55,722 bases of DNA from a virus, in the IMG/VR virus record IMGVR_UViG_3300042923_000857, positions 1-55,722 of that record; one strand, given 5' to 3'. The translations under genes were made by a program, and so were the position numbers. A model generated the notes under the pieces. It ran no database searches, was not told where the DNA came from, and was given only the letters and a program-made list of their open reading frames with translations. Positions 1 through 55,722 of this stretch are shown piece by piece. Within the stretch, counting starts at the first letter, position 1. Each line of letters starts with the position of its first letter.

Positions 1-127
1 CGGTCATTTAACTGAGGAGCAGTTAGAGGCGGTAAAGAAAGTAAATATGGACGACGATTCCTTTTTAGACGTTCCATTCATCTTTAATGGCCGTGAATTA
101 ACAAGGGAACAGAAAATTAAACTCCGA
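1..127. repeat. Terminal overlap, left copy (circular sequence)
   Basis: These 127 bases are identical to the last 127 of the window (55596-55722). The repressor reading frame is continuous when the two copies are merged, so the repeat is best read as the overlap left when a circular molecule was assembled. It is not a biological terminal repeat. A length of 127 is also a common assembler k-mer size. Confidence 0.93.
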
Positions 128-154
128 TCTGCTGCTCAATTATTTCTTGAGTAA
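1..154 (+). CDS. CI-like phage repressor, C-terminal part (gene starts at 55369)
   Basis: This is the end of the repressor gene that begins at 55369 and crosses the circular junction. The codon frame starts at base 2 and the stop TAA is at 152-154. Joined, the gene encodes 126 residues: an N-terminal Xre-type helix-turn-helix and a short C-terminal arm, with no LexA-type autoprotease domain. The tail seen here is acidic and ends in LFLE, typical of short Firmicute phage repressors. It would keep the lytic genes silent in a lysogen. See the 55369 entry for the DNA-binding part and the operators. Confidence 0.88.
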   Translation, partial: GHLTEEQLEAVKKVNMDDDSFLDVPFIFNGRELTREQKIKLRSAAQLFLE

Positions 155-296: not shown

Positions 297-524
297 ATGC
301 CACTTTCCGTTGGGAAGTGTCAGCTGCAAGGAATCCGCAAATCCAATGGGTGGACTCAAGATGAGCTATGTATTGAATTAAAACGAAAGCTCGGTATTGA
401 GTTAACCCCTCAAATGATTTCCCATTACGAGACGAACAAGAAGACGATGTCTCTTCTTAATCTGATGGCGATGTCGGAATTGTTTGAACGGAGCATGGAT
501 GACTTCTACCTAAGAAAGCGGTAG
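297..524 (+). CDS. Xre-family helix-turn-helix regulator
   Basis: This 75-residue DNA-binding protein lies downstream of the repressor on the same strand and is probably on the same transcript. The HTH spans about residues 17-60: WTQDELCIEL is the first helix and TPQMISHYETN the recognition helix. The end, SMDDFYLRKR, matches the usual tail of Cro/CI HTH domains. It is the DNA-binding domain alone, with no sensor or oligomerisation domain. The start ATG follows GGAGG at a spacing of 10. It is likely a second regulator of the lysogeny circuit; its target is not visible. Confidence 0.78.
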   Translation: MPLSVGKCQLQGIRKSNGWTQDELCIELKRKLGIELTPQMISHYETNKKTMSLLNLMAMSELFERSMDDFYLRKR

Positions 525-740: not shown

Positions 741-770
741 AAAAAAGAAAAAAACTGCCATTTGGCAGTT
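741..770 (-). terminator. Intrinsic terminator of the agr operon
   Basis: Read on the - strand, the near-perfect hairpin AACTGCCA/TGGCAGTT is followed by a T-rich run (T7 C T6). It sits just below the stop codon of the LytTR gene and closes the leftward agr transcription unit. Confidence 0.82.
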
Positions 771-785
771 TATAGTTCACAATGT

Positions 786-1166
786 TTAGTTTATAACGAT
801 CACTCGGTTTTCTTCGCGGGCCTTCGACACTACTTTCTTGTAGTACTTCTGAGCTAAGGTAATTTTTTTTGAATTTTTTTCGACTTCATATTCGAAGTAC
901 GCAATGGTATAAATACTGTCCAACCTCTTGATTTTCGGCATATGGACTACAATATTTCGATCAACTTTCTCGAAATCATATCCAGCCGCCTTGAGAGCTT
1001 CCACCCAGTAAGACAAGGAGCCCCCGATATAAAATCGATCCTCCAGCGTGTGAACGAAGACTCGTTTCTCATCAAACTCCAGAAAAAGGACATCCGAAGC
1101 ACCTACGTTCAAAGCCCCTTTTTTTCCTTCTTCATCTTTGGAGACGGACAATTGTAGTGGTAACAT
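786..1166 (-). CDS. LytTR DNA-binding regulator without receiver domain
   Basis: The 126-residue protein is made up almost entirely of a LytTR domain, the fold AgrA and related regulators use to bind DNA. Supporting segments are DVLFLEFDEKRVFVHT (beta strands) and the basic FEKVDRN region that corresponds to the F-x-x-x-HRS-x-x-V element of LytTR proteins. There is no CheY-like receiver, so a histidine kinase could not switch it by phosphorylation in the usual way. I chose the ATG at 1166, six bases after GGAGGG; an upstream ATG at 1181 would contain that ribosome site. It is the last gene of the agr operon and presumably its output. Stand-alone LytTR proteins of this kind are common in Paenibacillus. 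Confidence 0.82.
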   Translation of the reverse strand: MLPLQLSVSKDEEGKKGALNVGASDVLFLEFDEKRVFVHTLEDRFYIGGSLSYWVEALKAAGYDFEKVDRNIVVHMPKIKRLDSIYTIAYFEYEVEKNSKKITLAQKYYKKVVSKAREENRVIVIN

Positions 1167-1187
1167 ACCGATTCCCTCCATTGTTTT

Positions 1188-1313
1188 CTATTTCAACAAT
1201 TCTGCAGGAGTCTCATCTTGATGAATGTAAAGCCAGCTAGCCGTTGTTGTTGCGATTATTACCGCAATGAATCCTAACAATGTAGCGAGTTTATAGAACG
1301 CACGTTTTTTCAT
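1188..1313 (-). CDS. agrD: AgrD-like cyclic autoinducer peptide precursor
   Basis: This 41-residue peptide has the three parts of an AgrD: a basic, amphipathic N-terminal leader (MKKRAFYKLA...), a core around TASWLYIHQ and an acidic C-terminal recognition tail (DETPAELLK). By analogy with staphylococcal AgrD, a five-residue ring SWLYI (residues 26-30) would be closed by Ser26 instead of the usual Cys, giving a lactone rather than a thiolactone. The ATG overlaps the agrB stop (ATGA), and a strong GGAGAGGAGGTGAT lies upstream. The gene sits directly after agrB, as in known agr loci. Confidence 0.85.
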   Translation of the reverse strand: MKKRAFYKLATLLGFIAVIIATTTASWLYIHQDETPAELLK

Positions 1314-1828
1314 GTACTATCACCTCCTCTCCGGATTAACGTTGCACTCTGCACTAAGAATGCAATCGCCAATACCGGTGAGTCAAACAAGAAGTTGCTT
1401 GAGATGATGATGATCGTAATTAATTTAAGTACTGGATATCGTTTTTTCGGAATGCGTGATTCTAATTTTGAAGGAGCAAAAGCTAAAGCGAGGCATGCAG
1501 AAAGGCAATTCATAACATCAATCGTAGTTTGTCCGAAATCCGCAAAAGAGAAGCTAGTTAATCCTAAAGTGGATACCACTACACAAAGCGTACCCGACTT
1601 TAAGTGGAACCCACCTGAGAACTGTCTAAGGAGAGCGTATGATACAAGTGCGATGACAATTTCCGTTGTGCGGCCTGTAAAAGCGGAGATGATTAGCGAT
1701 ATTCCGATGATGAACCCGGTGTTAAGTAAAAATGAAATAGCATGCTTTAATACTGCAACACTACGCGGGTGGTCGGGATTGACAGATTTAATGCCTCTTG
1801 CGAGCTTCCACGCTAGTGAATCAATCAA
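1310..1828 (-). CDS. agrB: AgrB-like peptide-processing membrane protease
   Basis: The 172-residue multi-pass membrane protein belongs to the accessory gene regulator B family. AgrB cleaves the C-terminal tail of AgrD and cyclises the signal peptide at the membrane. The catalytic pair is visible as His75 and Cys82 in GGFHLKSGTLC, the same seven-residue spacing as H77/C84 of S. aureus AgrB. Hydrophobic segments follow at about 80-100, 104-120 and 135-160. Translation starts at TTG (1828), which overlaps the stop of the AgrC-like gene (TTGA) after GGAGG, so the two are translationally coupled. Confidence 0.92.
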   Translation of the reverse strand: MIDSLAWKLARGIKSVNPDHPRSVAVLKHAISFLLNTGFIIGISLIISAFTGRTTEIVIALVSYALLRQFSGGFHLKSGTLCVVVSTLGLTSFSFADFGQTTIDVMNCLSACLALAFAPSKLESRIPKKRYPVLKLITIIIISSNFLFDSPVLAIAFLVQSATLIRRGGDST

Positions 1829-2457
1829 TCTGCAGCATCCTCCTTCTTAAAGGAATAACGGAGGAATACCAGGAGAGCTAGAACGAATACAAGCAAGTTA
1901 AGGAAAACTTCTCTGAAATACATCATTGCTGCTAGAGCAACTATGAAAACAATAATGGACGAAATTACCGCGACTCGTTCCCATGAGAATTTTACGTTCT
2001 CAATAAAGTCGAACGTAAATCCATAGCCGAATCTATACAGAGTCCAACCGATCGAGAAGCCGACAACTCCCGTAAGAACTTGCACTGAGTATGCTTTCCA
2101 TAAAAACTCCTGCACTATATCTAACGAAAAGTATCCATCAGACAAATACAATATCCCATTCTGTATGATGCCAAGTCCCACATAACCAGCAACAGACATA
2201 AAGAACGATCCGATCAGCGGTATTCTAACGAAGATCATTAAGAAGAGTACGATTATCAGCAGGTTTATGATTGGCGCTATAAACGACAAAGATAGTTCTT
2301 CCCTAATTAAAAAATTCTGAAAATTGATGATGATAATCACGATTAAGGTGGACCATTTATAACGCATCAAGTCGTACCTAAAGATATAAAACAATATCGA
2401 AAACACGGCGATCCCTTCAAATATCGAGAAAAACATAAACCCAAGAAATTCACTCAT
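1825..2457 (-). CDS. AgrC-like membrane sensor lacking a kinase domain
   Basis: The 210 residues form six or seven hydrophobic segments and end in a short charged tail (RYSFKKEDAAD). The size and topology match the N-terminal sensor half of AgrC, which binds the cyclic peptide outside the cell. The HisKA/HATPase part, normally about 220 more residues, is absent. Its place between the HTH gene and agrB in the operon supports the assignment; sequence alone would only say polytopic membrane protein. It could be a kinase-less receptor, a decoy receptor or an exporter/immunity protein for the peptide. The ATG start follows GGGGAG. Confidence 0.6.
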   Translation of the reverse strand: MSEFLGFMFFSIFEGIAVFSILFYIFRYDLMRYKWSTLIVIIIINFQNFLIREELSLSFIAPIINLLIIVLFLMIFVRIPLIGSFFMSVAGYVGLGIIQNGILYLSDGYFSLDIVQEFLWKAYSVQVLTGVVGFSIGWTLYRFGYGFTFDFIENVKFSWERVAVISSIIVFIVALAAMMYFREVFLNLLVFVLALLVFLRYSFKKEDAAD

Positions 2458-2498: not shown

Positions 2499-2807
2499 TT
2501 AATCACTCTTTACTCTTTTGCGCTGTTCCCGCCATTCGTCGATCTTATCGATATATTCTTCTATGTCATCTTCAAGCCAGAAGGGGAATTTACCTGCATG
2601 GAGCATGGGTTCAGGGAAAAACTCTGTCTTTCGCTTATGAATCATATTTCTCGGATCGATCCCAAGCATGATCGCGACTTCTTGATTTCCTATTAGCTTA
2701 ATCCCTTTGGTGCGTCCCTCGTATTTTTTGATCAACTCGTGAATAAGACGTCCGTCTTCCCCGCCGATCCGGTCAGCGAGTTCACGATATTTTTGAAGCT
2801 GATCCAA
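2499..2807 (-). CDS. Helix-turn-helix protein, first gene of the agr operon
   Basis: The 102-residue protein carries an excisionase/AlpA-like winged HTH at about residues 38-90: NQEVAIMLGIDPRNMIHKR is followed by a wing and FWLEDDIEEYIDK. Translation begins at TTG, six bases after AAGGGGGTG; no in-frame ATG or GTG fits as well. The predicted leader is very short because the -10 box ends only about 25 bases upstream of the start. As first gene of the signalling operon it is a candidate regulator of its own promoter and of the matching promoter at 54.87 kb. That role is inferred. Confidence 0.65.
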   Translation of the reverse strand: MDQLQKYRELADRIGGEDGRLIHELIKKYEGRTKGIKLIGNQEVAIMLGIDPRNMIHKRKTEFFPEPMLHAGKFPFWLEDDIEEYIDKIDEWREQRKRVKSD

Positions 2808-2819
2808 TTATTACACCCC

Positions 2820-2887
2820 CTTACAAGAATCATTGTATGTCAAAGTCTTATGTATGTCAACATCATATATAAGGGAAACTCATATAT
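2820..2887 (-). promoter_or_regulatory. agr operon promoter with 17-bp tandem repeats
   Basis: On the - strand, -35 TTGACA (2855-2860), a 17-base spacer and -10 TACAAT (2832-2837) make a near-consensus promoter. The segment reads as tandem 17-base units: ATATATGAGTTTCCCTT (2871-2887), ATATATGATGTTGACAT (2854-2870) and ACATAAGACTTTGACAT (2837-2853). The -35 is part of the second unit, and the -10 begins with the last base of the third. The same units in the same phase occur at 54863-54896. Tandem sites over the -35 are typical of a regulator touching RNA polymerase, as lambda CII does. Confidence 0.78.
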
Positions 2888-3145: not shown

Positions 3146-5602
3146 TTATTTGTTTGATCTACGTTTCTTAATGTCGGCCAGTACTTCGGCTATGGGACGT
3201 CCATACTGCCTCGCATGGCGCTTGGTTAGGAAAGAGTTATCAATAGTGTCGTATCGGTTACCAATCAACGGGAGAGCGTCACAAACGAACGGAGCCTCGT
3301 ATTCTCCCTCGTGCAGCCAGCAAGCAATGTACTGATACTGCTTTGTTGCATCAAAAGCCTGCTGAGGTTCGGTAAATGTCTTACCCAGGTACGGCATTAA
3401 CTTTTTGTATGTGTCTACGTGCGTATTTTTGAACAAGTGCCAATTGATCGAAGCTGAAAGAAGGGTATCTGTGAACCCGGGGTATTCACTAAATGCGCTG
3501 AAATCGTGGAAGACAATCACCGGCGCCAGCCGATACTTCGGCCCTTCTCTTAGCATCCGCTTTGTAAAGTGTACGAGGCCCTTCGATAGGAATTGATGCG
3601 GTTCGTTTAGGACAAGGAACGTTCCCGAGCCTTTACCATCCTGCGCGAGCTTGATCAAAAATGTGAGCATGGCGATCCAATAACCAAGCGTCTCTTTAAT
3701 ACGCTCCGGCATAGGTATCCCATCGGGCATCCGGCAGCGAATGATAACTACCTTTCCTTCCTGTAACCAACGATACAGATCCATCTCAGGGTTAAAGCTC
3801 TGACAAAACATCGGCTTTAGAAACTCGCTGCCTACGATCTGGTTGAGCCTGCGGAGCACTGGTCCGTATATTTGCCCTTGCTTCCCCTCGCTCATCTTAT
3901 CGAAGTCTCGCCAAGTATCCATGTCGAAGACACTATCGAGTTCGGATATCTTCTTTTTCCTGAATGATGGCGAGAGGAACATTTCTTTCATGTCGGTAAA
4001 ATCTCCGTTCGTTGCTTTGGCAGCTTCCCGGGCAAAGTCTGCCGTCTGGAACTTATCCTCGTCGCCGTCCGAAAGTAGAAAGTCGGTTAGATACTCCGCG
4101 ATGACATCGGCAGCCACCCGAGTATCTTTCACATTTTGGAATATAGACTGCAGACCTAGATAAGGTGCATACGCAGTGTCGGCAAGGTTTATATCGATCA
4201 CGTCTTCAGGCGGAAGATGATCTCTTATCGCATCGGCCATGCCGCGGTGACCGTTACGCTCGTCTATGAAGTCTGGGATAACAGCTCCGATGCCGTGCTT
4301 GCGCTTAGCCTCAACAACCATGTTAATGACCGCTTGATCTTTCCCCATACGTGGGCTCCCGTTGACTCCTCGAGCCATATATAGCTTATCCGGACGATTC
4401 GTAGGGATGTGGATATCATAGGTCGCTCCCCGATCGGTAGCCGTCCCGGCCAGAATGCCCTTATCATTCAAAAATACTTTGGGTAACTCGATCTCTACTC
4501 GCCGATTAGATTGGAGTGCATTGGCGAACTCCAATTGCAATTCGGACGTTGGGAGCTGCTGGAGCTTGCCGAGTTCGTCGACGCTCATGATGTTTGGCGT
4601 CATTTCATTCATGCGCCAATTGCTCAAGTCGTTTAATGCTTCCTTGGATCGCAGATTGACCTTTACCATCTCCAAGCGGTTATCGTGGTACTTTCCTTTT
4701 TCAGTGACGACCCCGTACGCACCGGCAACAGATCGAGCAAGCATTTCCCTTTTGACCGGATCGACCGAGAAAACTGTATATCGAATCGACGTTTTGAACA
4801 CCGGGAGATTCCGCTTGTTTTTACTCAGCGGGGATAAATCACCGCTAACCAGCAATTCAGACCGATCGGGATTAATATGCTTTGGCCGCTCTACCTTTTG
4901 CCGTTGCCCTCCATTGTTGTGAAAGAATGACCGTTCGAGTCCGACTAGAACATCGTCGACCAATGACTTAGCTTCAAAGAATAGATGAGTTACCCCGTTC
5001 GCGACATGGCGCAGGATCCTAAGTGGATCGAATCCAGCACGGTACGGCACGCCCCCCTTATCCCATTGTTCCCAAGCATAATCGGCTAGCTTCTTCCACT
5101 TCCCCCGCGGTACCGTCTCTGTCTTAATGAAAATAGAAACTGCTTCATCTTCCGATAACTCATTCGTGACCCCGAGCACGCTCCGGACCGGAATCGTTTG
5201 TTCCGAGTGGTCGGCATCGAGAGAGAACATATCATGTCGCTTATATTTGAGAGCATAAAGCTCCGTCTGCTCACCAGTCGGGAAGTCGAACGTATCGGCA
5301 ACTTCGAGAGTCGACTTCCTCCATTGGTCATGGTTTCTAAACTTGATCCGGAACGCGTCCGCAAACTCTGCTGGCATAGCACAATAATACTCGATAGTCT
5401 GAGAGGTAAGCTTTGTTATCCACCAGAAATCCGGGGCGGCCTTAACAATGATCTTAAATCCTTCCCTTCTTGGTTTATGACGGACCGAGAATAATTCATA
5501 AAGCGCTCGCTGAAAGTTTCGGGAGGACGAATTAAGGACGGTGTGATGCGGGATTATTCGGAATACGACATAGGACGGCTTAAGACGTTCAATGAAATGC
5601 AC
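3146..5602 (-). CDS. VirD4/HerA-like P-loop ATPase (conjugation or translocation type)
   Basis: The 818-residue protein has a C-terminal half resembling the coupling/assembly ATPases of type IV secretion (TraG/VirD4, VirB4, HerA). The Walker A is at 412-423 (GVNGSPRMGKDQ, Asp where Thr/Ser is usual). A degenerate Walker B is at 661-671 (TFLVLNEPHQF, Asn-Glu instead of Asp-Glu), and APVIVFHDF follows. The N-terminal 200 residues recall the surface-exposed region of such ATPases (EYYCAMPAEF). No clear transmembrane helix is seen. The GTG start lies eight bases after GGGAGG. Neighbours are an M23 peptidase and small membrane proteins, a set like a reduced transfer machine. The atypical P-loop leaves activity uncertain. 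Confidence 0.72.
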   Translation of the reverse strand: MHFIERLKPSYVVFRIIPHHTVLNSSSRNFQRALYELFSVRHKPRREGFKIIVKAAPDFWWITKLTSQTIEYYCAMPAEFADAFRIKFRNHDQWRKSTLEVADTFDFPTGEQTELYALKYKRHDMFSLDADHSEQTIPVRSVLGVTNELSEDEAVSIFIKTETVPRGKWKKLADYAWEQWDKGGVPYRAGFDPLRILRHVANGVTHLFFEAKSLVDDVLVGLERSFFHNNGGQRQKVERPKHINPDRSELLVSGDLSPLSKNKRNLPVFKTSIRYTVFSVDPVKREMLARSVAGAYGVVTEKGKYHDNRLEMVKVNLRSKEALNDLSNWRMNEMTPNIMSVDELGKLQQLPTSELQLEFANALQSNRRVEIELPKVFLNDKGILAGTATDRGATYDIHIPTNRPDKLYMARGVNGSPRMGKDQAVINMVVEAKRKHGIGAVIPDFIDERNGHRGMADAIRDHLPPEDVIDINLADTAYAPYLGLQSIFQNVKDTRVAADVIAEYLTDFLLSDGDEDKFQTADFAREAAKATNGDFTDMKEMFLSPSFRKKKISELDSVFDMDTWRDFDKMSEGKQGQIYGPVLRRLNQIVGSEFLKPMFCQSFNPEMDLYRWLQEGKVVIIRCRMPDGIPMPERIKETLGYWIAMLTFLIKLAQDGKGSGTFLVLNEPHQFLSKGLVHFTKRMLREGPKYRLAPVIVFHDFSAFSEYPGFTDTLLSASINWHLFKNTHVDTYKKLMPYLGKTFTEPQQAFDATKQYQYIACWLHEGEYEAPFVCDALPLIGNRYDTIDNSFLTKRHARQYGRPIAEVLADIKKRRSNK

Positions 5603-7056: not shown

Positions 7057-7060
7057 GCTG

Positions 7061-7297
7061 TCATTTCTTGATGAACCGCGCTCCTTTCGCCGTCAATGAG
7101 ATCCATACTGTCTCAGGTTCGTTGTTGGCATTGGATGGGAACTGTGAAGATGACGGCGAATCTGAAGCCTCCATATCGCGCTGAATCAGACGTTTGATGT
7201 AGGACGAGTAGTTCGTTTGACTTTCCGCATACTCCAACAATTTCATTTGAAATGGATCATCAGGGTTAAACACTACCGGCTTTCTCTTCATTGCCAT
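7061..7297 (-). CDS. Ribbon-helix-helix-like small DNA-binding protein
   Basis: The 78-residue protein has the pattern of a CopG/Arc-type ribbon-helix-helix: the strand RKPVVFN, then helix DPFQMKLLEYAESQ, turn and helix SSYIKRLIQRDME, followed by a polar, probably disordered tail. Such proteins control plasmid copy number, partition or transfer operons. It is first in the leftward unit with the membrane protein, peptidase and ATPase and probably autoregulates it. I used ATG 7297 after AGGAG; the upstream start is too far from a ribosome site. Confidence 0.66.
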   Translation of the reverse strand: MAMKRKPVVFNPDDPFQMKLLEYAESQTNYSSYIKRLIQRDMEASDSPSSSQFPSNANNEPETVWISLTAKGARFIKK

Positions 7298-54156: not shown

Positions 54157-54287
54157 TTGGAACCTCCTCCGCATATAAGAACCGGATAGCTAACGTTCTC
54201 CAGAACCTTGAATCCCGTACGGAGTAACGTTCCTTTGTGATCAACGGCAACCAACGACTTACAGTGCATGCAGTAGGCATAGTTCAC
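54153..54287 (-). CDS. Short Cys-motif protein (44 residues)
   Basis: A GTG-started frame overlaps the HTH stop (GTGA) and ends at the start of the next gene (ATGA). The product reads NYAYCMHCKSLVAVDHKGTL with CxxC near the start and one later Cys (LICGGGSK), so a small zinc or redox site is possible. The exact overlaps at both ends are strong support. Another frame over the same bases (54068-54280) is discarded. Confidence 0.62.
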   Translation of the reverse strand: MNYAYCMHCKSLVAVDHKGTLLRTGFKVLENVSYPVLICGGGSK

Positions 54288-54541
54288 GATTTAGCCGTCC
54301 CCCTAAGCAAGTAATCTAAGCTGATGTTAAATCGATTCGTAATCCGCAGTATCATCCGCCGATCCATACCGCGCCTTCCGGTTTCGTAATGGGACAGTGC
54401 GCCGCGGGTGATTCCAAGCAACGTTGCGAATTGTAATTGTGTGAAGCCTGTTTTGAGGCGAATATCTAGGAGTCGTTTGCCGAATGTTGTATTGTCCTCT
54501 TCAATGGCTTCTGTTGGTTGGTTGGGAAGCGTTACGTTCAT
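54284..54541 (-). CDS. Xre-family helix-turn-helix regulator
   Basis: The 85-residue protein has a full HTH: FGKRLLDIRLKTGFTQLQFA, then LGITRGALSHYETGRRGMD and FNISLDYLLRG. It is the third gene of the leftward early transcript. In position it matches cII-like or second regulator genes of temperate phages and is a candidate for the protein that reads the 17-bp repeats. ATG follows GGAGG by nine bases. Confidence 0.85.
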   Translation of the reverse strand: MNVTLPNQPTEAIEEDNTTFGKRLLDIRLKTGFTQLQFATLLGITRGALSHYETGRRGMDRRMILRITNRFNISLDYLLRGTAKS

Positions 54542-54632
54542 CTAACCAATCCTCCATCCATAAGCTGAAGAACCAGACGGGAATGTAAATCCAGAAGCCG
54601 ATAAGCATTGAGAGAAGCAACTGCCATATCAT
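54501..54632 (-). CDS. Small membrane protein (43 residues)
   Basis: The ATG overlaps the preceding stop (ATGA). The product is a tryptophan-rich hydrophobic helix (MIWQLLLSMLIGFWIYIPVW), then a short charged tail. It overlaps the HTH gene start by 41 bases. It could be a superinfection or membrane-stress peptide. Confidence 0.52.
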   Translation of the reverse strand: MIWQLLLSMLIGFWIYIPVWFFSLWMEDWLDERNASQPTNRSH

Positions 54633-54832
54633 GATGTTGGAAATTTCTTGTTGAGGAAGTCACGGAGTTTGTGAATACTTTCGAGGCGATCTATGGTGAA
54701 CGACTTAGCTGGCACTTGAAAACCACTTTCGTAATCGATTGTTTCTTCTTGCATCATCGATAAGACGACTGCCGTTCCGCGTTCTATTACTTGAGCGACC
54801 TGTTTATCGCTTAGAGATGCGGCATCTTGCAT
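54629..54832 (-). CDS. Small early protein (67 residues)
   Basis: The protein (DAASLSDKQVAQVIERGTAV, then SFTIDRLESIHKLRDFLNKK) is helical and acidic/basic mixed. I used ATG 54832, six bases from GAAGG; an earlier ATG at 54850 contains that site. It is second in the early operon, after the Cro-like gene. The function is unknown. Confidence 0.62.
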   Translation of the reverse strand: MQDAASLSDKQVAQVIERGTAVVLSMMQEETIDYESGFQVPAKSFTIDRLESIHKLRDFLNKKFPTS

Positions 54833-54862
54833 ATGCGACCTTCTTCCCATAAATAAAACTCG

Positions 54863-54901
54863 ATATATGACGTTGACGTATATATGAGTTTCACTTATAA
54901 T
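54863..54901 (+). promoter_or_regulatory. Rightward promoter with 17-bp repeats (pRE-like)
   Basis: The -35 TTGACG (54873-54878), 17 bases and -10 TATAAT (54896-54901) face right, antisense to the Cro-like gene and toward the repressor. Two tandem 17-base units, ATATATGACGTTGACGT (54863-54879) and ATATATGAGTTTCACTT (54880-54896), cover it. The same units, in the same phase to -35 and -10, form the agr promoter at 2.85 kb. The arms AAACTC/GAGTTT (54856-54891) also make a loose dyad. Confidence 0.75.
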
Positions 54902-54957: not shown

Positions 54958-54972
54958 CCTTAGATTCTAAGT
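54958..54972. promoter_or_regulatory. Repressor/Cro operator O3
   Basis: CCTTAGATTCTAAGT matches 14 of 15 positions of the palindromic consensus CCTTAGAWTCTAAGG seen at 55217. It overlaps the Cro stop codon and lies downstream of the rightward promoter at 54.87 kb, where a bound protein could act as a roadblock. Confidence 0.75.
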
Positions 54973-55179
54973 GTTACTGGGTAAAAAAAATTCCATCGGC
55001 TCTCCTAGAGCCTTAGCTATTGCCGCGAACTCCTCTGGCAAAACCTTAGCCCTCCCTCCAAGAATCGCATAAAAACGTGTTGCTTCAATGCCACAATCTT
55101 CAGCTACCTTGTTGAATTTCAAGTCATTGGTGAGAATATGAAGCCGGATCTTCTGTACAACAGGATTCCTTTTGTTCAC
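54967..55179 (-). CDS. Cro-like helix-turn-helix regulator
   Basis: The 70-residue protein, first in the leftward early operon and divergent from the repressor, has an HTH KFNKVAEDCGIEATRFYAIL followed by EEFAAIAKALGEPMEFFL. It starts with GTG after GAAGGGATC; a stronger AAAGGAGGG lies about 20 bases further up. It presumably competes for the 15-bp operators and favours lytic growth. Confidence 0.82.
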   Translation of the reverse strand: MNKRNPVVQKIRLHILTNDLKFNKVAEDCGIEATRFYAILGGRAKVLPEEFAAIAKALGEPMEFFLPSNT

Positions 55180-55216
55180 GATCCCTTCGATGTATAATCC
55201 CTCCTTTCTTGGTAAA

Positions 55217-55274
55217 CCTTAGAATCTAAGGATTCCGTGTGAACAATATAACCCTTAGATTTTAAGGATGTCAA
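55217..55274 (-). promoter_or_regulatory. Early promoter with operators O1 and O2
   Basis: The leftward promoter has -35 TTGACA (55269-55274), an 18-base spacer and -10 TATATT (55245-55250). O2, CCTTAGATTTTAAGG (55253-55267), fills the spacer. O1, the perfect palindrome CCTTAGAATCTAAGG (55217-55231), lies over the start of the transcript. Centres are 36 bp apart. A repressor on both sites would block the early operon. Confidence 0.88.
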
Positions 55275-55368: not shown

Positions 55369-55722
55369 ATGAGTATCTTGTCAGAGAGGTTAAAAGAGGC
55401 GAGAAAAAGAAAAGGGAAACTGGATGGTAGGAAACTTACTCAAATCATGGTACAAGACGCAACAGGAGTACACAGTAGTACTTTGGGTGGATATGAAAAT
55501 TCAGTGAGTGAGCCCGATTCCGAAACCCTTCTCACTTTGGCTAATTACTATGGGGTCACAACAGATTGGTTGCTCGGGAATACCAGCAATCCGGCCGGTC
55601 ATTTAACTGAGGAGCAGTTAGAGGCGGTAAAGAAAGTAAATATGGACGACGATTCCTTTTTAGACGTTCCATTCATCTTTAATGGCCGTGAATTAACAAG
55701 GGAACAGAAAATTAAACTCCGA
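55369..55722 (+). CDS. CI-like phage repressor, N-terminal part (continues at base 1)
   Basis: This Xre-type repressor starts at ATG 55369 after GGAGGGG. The HTH covers about residues 5-65: SERLKEARKRKGKLDGRKLT, then DATGVHSSTLGGYENSVSEP and LANYYGVTTDWLLG. With the piece at 1-154 it makes 126 residues. It lacks an autocleavage domain, so induction would need a partner, an antirepressor or loss of expression. It is divergent from the Cro-like gene, with three operators nearby. The last 127 bases shown are the duplicated overlap. Confidence 0.93.
   Translation, partial: MSILSERLKEARKRKGKLDGRKLTQIMVQDATGVHSSTLGGYENSVSEPDSETLLTLANYYGVTTDWLLGNTSNPAGHLTEEQLEAVKKVNMDDDSFLDVPFIFNGRELTREQKIKLR
55596..55722. 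repeat. Terminal overlap, right copy
   Basis: Identical to bases 1-127. Removing one copy gives a 55,595-bp circle with an intact repressor gene across the joint. Confidence 0.93.

Follow-up and report, generated by a model that had tools for sequence, protein, structure and literature searches.

Promoters of the CII type have poor hexamers that need an activator and carry TTGC-N6-TTGC repeats around the -35, and MerR-activated promoters typically have a spacer of 19-20 bp. Phage agr genes have been known since 2014 (phiCDHM1; PMC3901668), with their target left open. GlnR and TnrA are MerR-like winged helix-turn-helix (wHTH) proteins that control nitrogen genes. They recognise TGTNAN7TNACA, a 17-bp site of the form 5-N7-5 (PMC6191146), and the operon that encodes GlnR is repressed by GlnR itself (PMC9249791). 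We analysed the IMG/VR virus record IMGVR_UViG_3300042923_000857, whose 55,722 nucleotides, the whole stretch of DNA studied, are referred to as the window. The window carries an agr/LytTR cassette opened by orf102, a gene for a 102-residue protein, and the subject of this study is a 17-bp dyad found both at the predicted promoter of this agr operon and at a second predicted promoter, P_E, which lies antisense to cro and points toward cI. An operator common to agr and the CI region was not described in the part of the phage-agr literature covered here, which included few subscription papers.

A 17-bp dyad at two predicted promoters

The original prediction described two pairs of 17-bp tandem units, one at the agr promoter and one at a promoter directed rightward at the other end of the window. 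All four units were found at exactly the positions claimed, and a degenerate third unit was added at the agr promoter. The units and promoters are listed below.

2871..2887, minus strand: unit 1 of the agr promoter, ATATATGAGTTTCCCTT; dyad frame 2869-2885
2854..2870, minus strand: unit 2 of the agr promoter, ATATATGATGTTGACAT, holding the -35; dyad frame 2852-2868
2837..2853, minus strand: degenerate unit 3 of the agr promoter, ACATAAGACTTTGACAT, in the -35/-10 spacer, where relatives have the dyad; dyad frame 2835-2851
2832..2860, minus strand: predicted agr-operon promoter TTGACA-17-TACAAT, 11/12 consensus, at a distance from the orf102 start similar to that in relatives
54863..54879, plus strand: unit at the CI-directed promoter, ATATATGACGTTGACGT, holding the -35; dyad frame 54865-54881, a perfect ATAYG-N7-CRTAT
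54880..54896, plus strand: unit at the CI-directed promoter, ATATATGAGTTTCACTT, in the spacer; dyad frame 54882-54898
54873..54901, plus strand: P_E, predicted promoter TTGACG-17-TATAAT, antisense to cro and toward cI, 11/12 consensus

Each promoter is the best sigma-70-like site of its own region, with a 17-bp spacer. A scan of the window for the two-unit pattern with <=3 mismatches revealed only these two places, with 0 expected (100 shuffles). A chance origin of the pattern was ruled out by the shuffles (none in 100), and the many equally good matches that would have spoken against a shared element were absent. Identical phasing of units and hexamers, from which a common regulator had been argued, is indeed present at both promoters; part of it is automatic, since a 17-bp period together with a 17-bp spacer fixes the position of the -10. 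A 17-bp dyad with the frame ATAYG-N7-CRTAT seems to describe the functional unit better than a tandem repeat does; abutting copies of the dyad look like a 17-bp tandem repeat, and some relatives have two copies 22 bp apart.

In the window and in relatives, P_E is placed just past cro, antisense to it and upstream of cI, and a scan of the window sequence found no terminator between P_E and cI. The first 127 bases of the window are identical to the last 127 (a direct terminal repeat, 1-127 duplicating 55596-55722), and the molecule is therefore circular, with a length of 55,595 bp. The two promoters, previously regarded as distant (~52 kb), lie ~3.5 kb apart on this circle. They enclose the switch: the agr operon, then a gene for a 75-residue HTH protein (HTH75) and the CI-like gene on the opposite strand, then cro.

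Related phages share the two-site layout

Relatives were found via orf102 homologues in Paenibacillaceae genomes, and viral contigs via the orf102 alignment. As single queries, orf102 and orf73 (the first lytic-operon gene after cro) found nothing in viral contigs, whereas the orf102 alignment did match. The homologues from Paenibacillaceae genomes are ~40-54% identical, and each lies directly upstream of AgrC-like and AgrB genes. Their promoters carry the 17-bp dyad ATAYG-N7-CRTAT in the -35/-10 spacer. Scans with the exact two-unit pattern returned no match in viral contigs or genome contigs because what is conserved in the relatives is the dyad and not the ATATATGA sequence.

The prophages L070 and L071 (relatives are given by their labels where they need to be told apart) have the gene order of the window, with orf102, AgrC-like, AgrB, AgrD and LytTR genes, HTH75 and CI facing back, and cro and orf73. 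Each has two perfect dyads, one at the orf102 promoter and one in the gap after cro. This two-site layout was present in eight distinct relatives: L070, L071 (with its near-duplicate L094), L087, L088, L090, L091, L093 and L095. An equivalent of the CI-directed second promoter, for example TTGACG-17-TATACT, was identified in L070, L071, L087, L088, L090, L091, L093 and L094, and cI lies downstream of the second promoter in 8/8 relatives. Upstream of orf102 in L071, inspection by eye showed neighbours resembling a ParM-type and a replication-relaxation-type protein; some relatives may carry plasmid-like features.

Across the stretches scanned, sequences within 0-1 mismatch of a phage's own operator occurred only at those two places. 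Where operators diverge, both places change together within a phage; L095, for instance, has ATAAGA-N5-TCTTAT at its own promoter and a copy with one change after cro. Site-to-site similarity within a phage was greater than that of permuted pairs (P 0.007, nine phages including the window), a signal that comes mostly from the window and L095, which have the most divergent operators. The recurrence of the layout in eight distinct relatives and the joint divergence of the two sites both favour the earlier proposal of one regulator for both promoters.

orf102 as the candidate regulator

Three regulators had been put forward: the 102-residue protein, the LytTR protein and an 85-residue HTH protein (HTH85). 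The agr operon of the window reads as follows.

2499..2807, minus strand: orf102, predicted 102-residue wHTH protein (MerR/excisionase-like), opening the operon; phrog_4745/phrog_66 matches
1825..2457, minus strand: 210-residue membrane protein in the AgrC slot, ~5 hydrophobic segments
1310..1828, minus strand: AgrB, Pfam AgrB 5e-13
1188..1313, minus strand: AgrD-like peptide precursor MKKRAFYKLATLLGFIAVIIATTTASWLYIHQDETPAELLK, read from the sequence and placed as in annotated relatives, with AgrB on one side and LytTR on the other
786..1181, minus strand: stand-alone LytTR DNA-binding protein of 131 residues without a receiver domain, Pfam LytTR 3e-8
752..771, minus strand: terminator-like hairpin closing the operon

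The dyad with 0-1 mismatch was found within <=150 bp in 17/18 orf102 cassettes, compared with ~2% of random 150-bp windows; the match counted for L095 is incidental, its real operator being two mismatches from consensus, as is that of L068. No dyad was found in any of 28 agr cassettes lacking orf102 (450 bp searched). This distribution bears first on the LytTR protein, which might bind the shared sites in the way that AgrA does at agr promoters; a LytTR gene accompanies orf102 in most cassettes, and these phages yielded no other LytTR target. However, LytTR cassettes without the 102-residue gene are without the site, and on this ground LytTR is disfavoured as the shared-site regulator. The LytTR proteins closest to that of the window (L015 and L016, 56-58% identical) occur without the dyad, while L070 and L087, with LytTR proteins only ~30-36% identical, have it. 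LytTR-family sites are 9-bp direct repeats 11-13 bp apart and upstream of the -35 (PMC6193735). Repeats of the 9-12-9 form do occur in LytTR cassettes without orf102 (L017, L023), and in the window no 9-12-9 LytTR repeats, that is, no AgrA-type site, were found. Binding of the shared sites by LytTR is thus very doubtful.

A second alternative is that a switch protein (CI, HTH75, cro or HTH85) binds the shared sites, and these HTH proteins are encoded beside one of them. Six orf102 cassettes have no adjoining CI, HTH75 or cro (L066, L067, L069, L072, L073 and L089), yet they retain the site, confined to their own promoter, and this speaks against binding by the switch proteins. CI and Cro also seem to have palindromes of their own. 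HTH85 was rejected, since its relatives belong to the generic XRE repressors and most two-site phages lack a separate counterpart of it. Taken together, a switch protein is the least credible binder, with a probability that we regard as very small indeed.

Recognition-helix sequences were compared with the operators. The helix KN(M/L/F)HH(T/V) pairs with ATA(C/A)GG half-sites, and the helix (R/N)N(M/L)xHK goes mostly with a non-G at half-site position 6. This covariation offers support, not proof, for orf102 as binder. Since the dyad tracks with orf102 and the recognition helix covaries with the operator, the 102-residue protein is, among the three candidates, the likely regulator of both sites, while the LytTR and 85-residue proteins are disfavoured.

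The orf102 protein had no Pfam match and only weak matches to PHROG DNA-binding and excisionase families, and phmmer against the PDB gave no match to solved structures. Its AlphaFold2 model (pLDDT 83) has the order helix-helix-hairpin-helix, and the top Foldseek matches of the model were RdfS, MtaN, BldC and GlnR/TnrA, all weak (E at least 0.05). These predictions tentatively suggest a wHTH protein of the MerR/excisionase superfamily.

The remainder of the cassette includes AgrB and an AgrD-like precursor, both agr components; an AgrC histidine kinase and a receiver-bearing AgrA were not found. The 210-residue protein in the AgrC slot had no Pfam match, thus no kinase domain was recognised. 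The AgrD-like peptide has Ser at the usual Cys position (TASWLYIHQDETPAELL), which suggests a lactone ring, and a P. cellulosilyticus peptide in L024 likewise has Ser. In L024, L025, L026 and L029 (~7060-7140) another class of small excisionase-like HTH protein leads agr cassettes; the promoter of this class has two TGTATTGcaaaCAATACA palindromes 33 bp apart, a parallel operator system.

A proposed link between peptide signalling and CI

We favour, with confidence somewhat above even, a reading in which orf102 is an autoregulator that binds the dyads at both promoters, most likely repressing both, and ties the agr cassette to CI. As a MerR/GlnR-like wHTH protein it would act as a dimer on 17-bp ATAYG-N7-CRTAT dyads, with its own agr-operon promoter and P_E as targets. 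In a newly infected cell without orf102 both promoters would fire, giving a burst of CI and of the signalling cassette, and the build-up of orf102 would then shut both. This loop presumably takes input from the peptide system, made up of AgrB, AgrD, the kinase-less membrane protein and LytTR. The earlier idea that peptide signalling is tied to repressor establishment is supported by the recurring two-site layout and the pRE-like topology.

Repression appears likelier because both promoters are near-consensus, with spacers of 17-18 bp and the dyad in the spacer. GlnR activates or represses according to site position (PMC6191146), and orf102 could instead bind both sites as an activator of the MerR or CII kind, jointly turning on agr signalling and CI establishment. 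P_E has the topology of lambda pRE, and MerR-superfamily activators bind dyads between the -35 and the -10. On the other side, the spacers are not the 19-20 bp of MerR-activated promoters, and both window promoters, at 11/12 consensus, would need little help. Activation is accordingly unlikely, if the strongest of the competing accounts of the sites, and the CII-like activator touching polymerase that was originally envisaged fits poorly with such hexamers, spacers and dyad position.

It was also considered that P_E mainly serves to make RNA antisense to cro and affects cI little, an account compatible with repression by orf102. The transcript would span all of cro before reaching cI. The lack of a terminator before cI and the position of cI in all eight relatives speak against it, and as the main role of P_E we consider it rather improbable.

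Several observations weigh against the orf102 reading. Ala-type helices (L065, L093, L095) go with mixed half-sites, and the helix-operator covariation is phylogenetically clustered among related sequences. In orf102, several of the two-site phages are closely related to one another. The relative L064/L092, which has orf102 and two perfect dyads at its promoter, is without a second site after cro. The Foldseek E-values are weak (best 0.05). We infer the sign of regulation, repression, from promoter geometry only. A search for boxes of period 20-22 did not find the LytTR protein's own target in orf102-type phages; the period-22 repeats seen there (L071, L095) are the dyad itself repeated.

The chances are about even that the locus represents a peptide-signalling lysis-lysogeny system distinct from arbitrium. 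In this reading a captured agr/LytTR cassette would be linked to CI establishment via a second operator of its wHTH autoregulator, located within an antisense promoter resembling pRE, and coevolution of operator and recognition helix would maintain a separate regulon in each phage. For one phage family, a cassette regulator whose operator is common to a repressor-directed promoter offers a testable answer to the question of the agr target. Peptide signalling is probably coupled, by a single small regulator, to the decision whether to kill the host or remain dormant. If true, this would be a second, independently built way of putting peptide signalling into the lysogeny decision; Gram-positive phages would then have an element resembling pRE, and the operator/helix pairs would form a natural series.

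Phage genome and switch region

PHROG and Pfam matches include terminase, portal, major head protein, tape measure, serine integrase, DnaB-like helicase, RecT and sliding clamp. With structural genes, integrase and a CI/cro switch all present, the record is by its gene content a temperate tailed phage of Paenibacillaceae type; the nearest relatives, judged by the agr genes, are in Paenibacillus and Cohnella. The switch region and the start of the lytic operon contain the following features.

55369..55722 then 1..153, plus strand: CI-like repressor of 126 residues, translated across the circle junction, 54% identical to the L070 CI-like protein
297..524, plus strand: 75-residue XRE-type HTH gene downstream of cI, Pfam HTH_3 3e-8
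55212..55267, no strand: two CI/Cro-type palindromes between cI and cro
54967..55179, minus strand: cro-like 70-residue HTH gene, weak HTH matches, synteny with L070/L071
54957..54973, no strand: third CI/Cro-type palindrome, TCCTTAGATTCTAAGTG, just downstream of P_E
54629..54850, minus strand: 73-residue protein (orf73), first lytic-operon gene after cro, homologues occupying this position in L070, L071 and other phages
54284..54541, minus strand: 85-residue XRE-type HTH protein, Pfam HTH_19 2e-12

The CI-like repressor is too small for a LexA-type peptidase domain, and RecA-stimulated cleavage is probably not the inducing route. A palindrome akin to those between cI and cro lies just downstream of the second promoter in 9/9 phages compared and is presumably a CI/Cro operator. 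In L064/L092, cro and orf73 overlap. Directly upstream of the agr operon, an 818-residue protein (3146-5602, minus strand) matches phrog_5156 (function unknown); the open reading frame at its position in L095 (2949-5309) has a P-loop (GPTRAGKST), which suggests a HerA/TraG-like ATPase. The viral contig L096 has an orf102-like HTH domain and an 818-residue homologue, with no agr genes found. Phage PG1 has a replication gene in common.

Comparison with known systems

Lambda pRE and CII resemble this locus in that a promoter directed at CI starts just beyond cro and runs antisense to it and, as proposed for the phage, in that its regulator also serves a second promoter. Of the features of a pRE-type promoter, the position antisense to cro was found in the phage, while poor hexamers and TTGC repeats were not; the phage promoter is consensus-like and carries spacer dyads in place of TTGC direct repeats. 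Its regulator would also come from a peptide-signalling operon and is probably a repressor. The sites of GlnR and TnrA have the 17-bp 5-N7-5 layout of the phage dyad, and orf102 is by prediction likewise a small wHTH protein; in contrast, the phage has the half-site ATAYG in place of TGTNA, and no glutamine-synthetase-binding tail was recognised in orf102.

Phage-borne agr cassettes (C. difficile phiCDHM1; Brevibacillus Abouo and Davies; Paenibacillus larvae Harrison and Paisley) likewise combine, in a temperate phage, AgrB and AgrD with a membrane protein that lacks a kinase (PMC3901668); no orf102 relative was found in the 'phages' collection. The LytTR regulatory systems HdrRM and BrsRM also combine a stand-alone LytTR protein with a kinase-less membrane protein (PMC6193735), whereas the phage cassette has agr peptide genes and a wHTH gene leading the operon. 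In such systems the membrane protein acts as inhibitor and positive feedback runs via repeats upstream; the phage cassette agrees in gene content, and no repeats of this kind were found in the window. Arbitrium (AimR-AimP-AimX) is similar in that phage-encoded peptide signalling is tied to lysogeny; the genes found in the window, where no search was aimed at AimR, are of the agr/LytTR type. In contrast to arbitrium, this phage would use an AgrB-processed peptide, a membrane protein, a LytTR protein and a wHTH regulator, and the target would be an antisense promoter toward CI.
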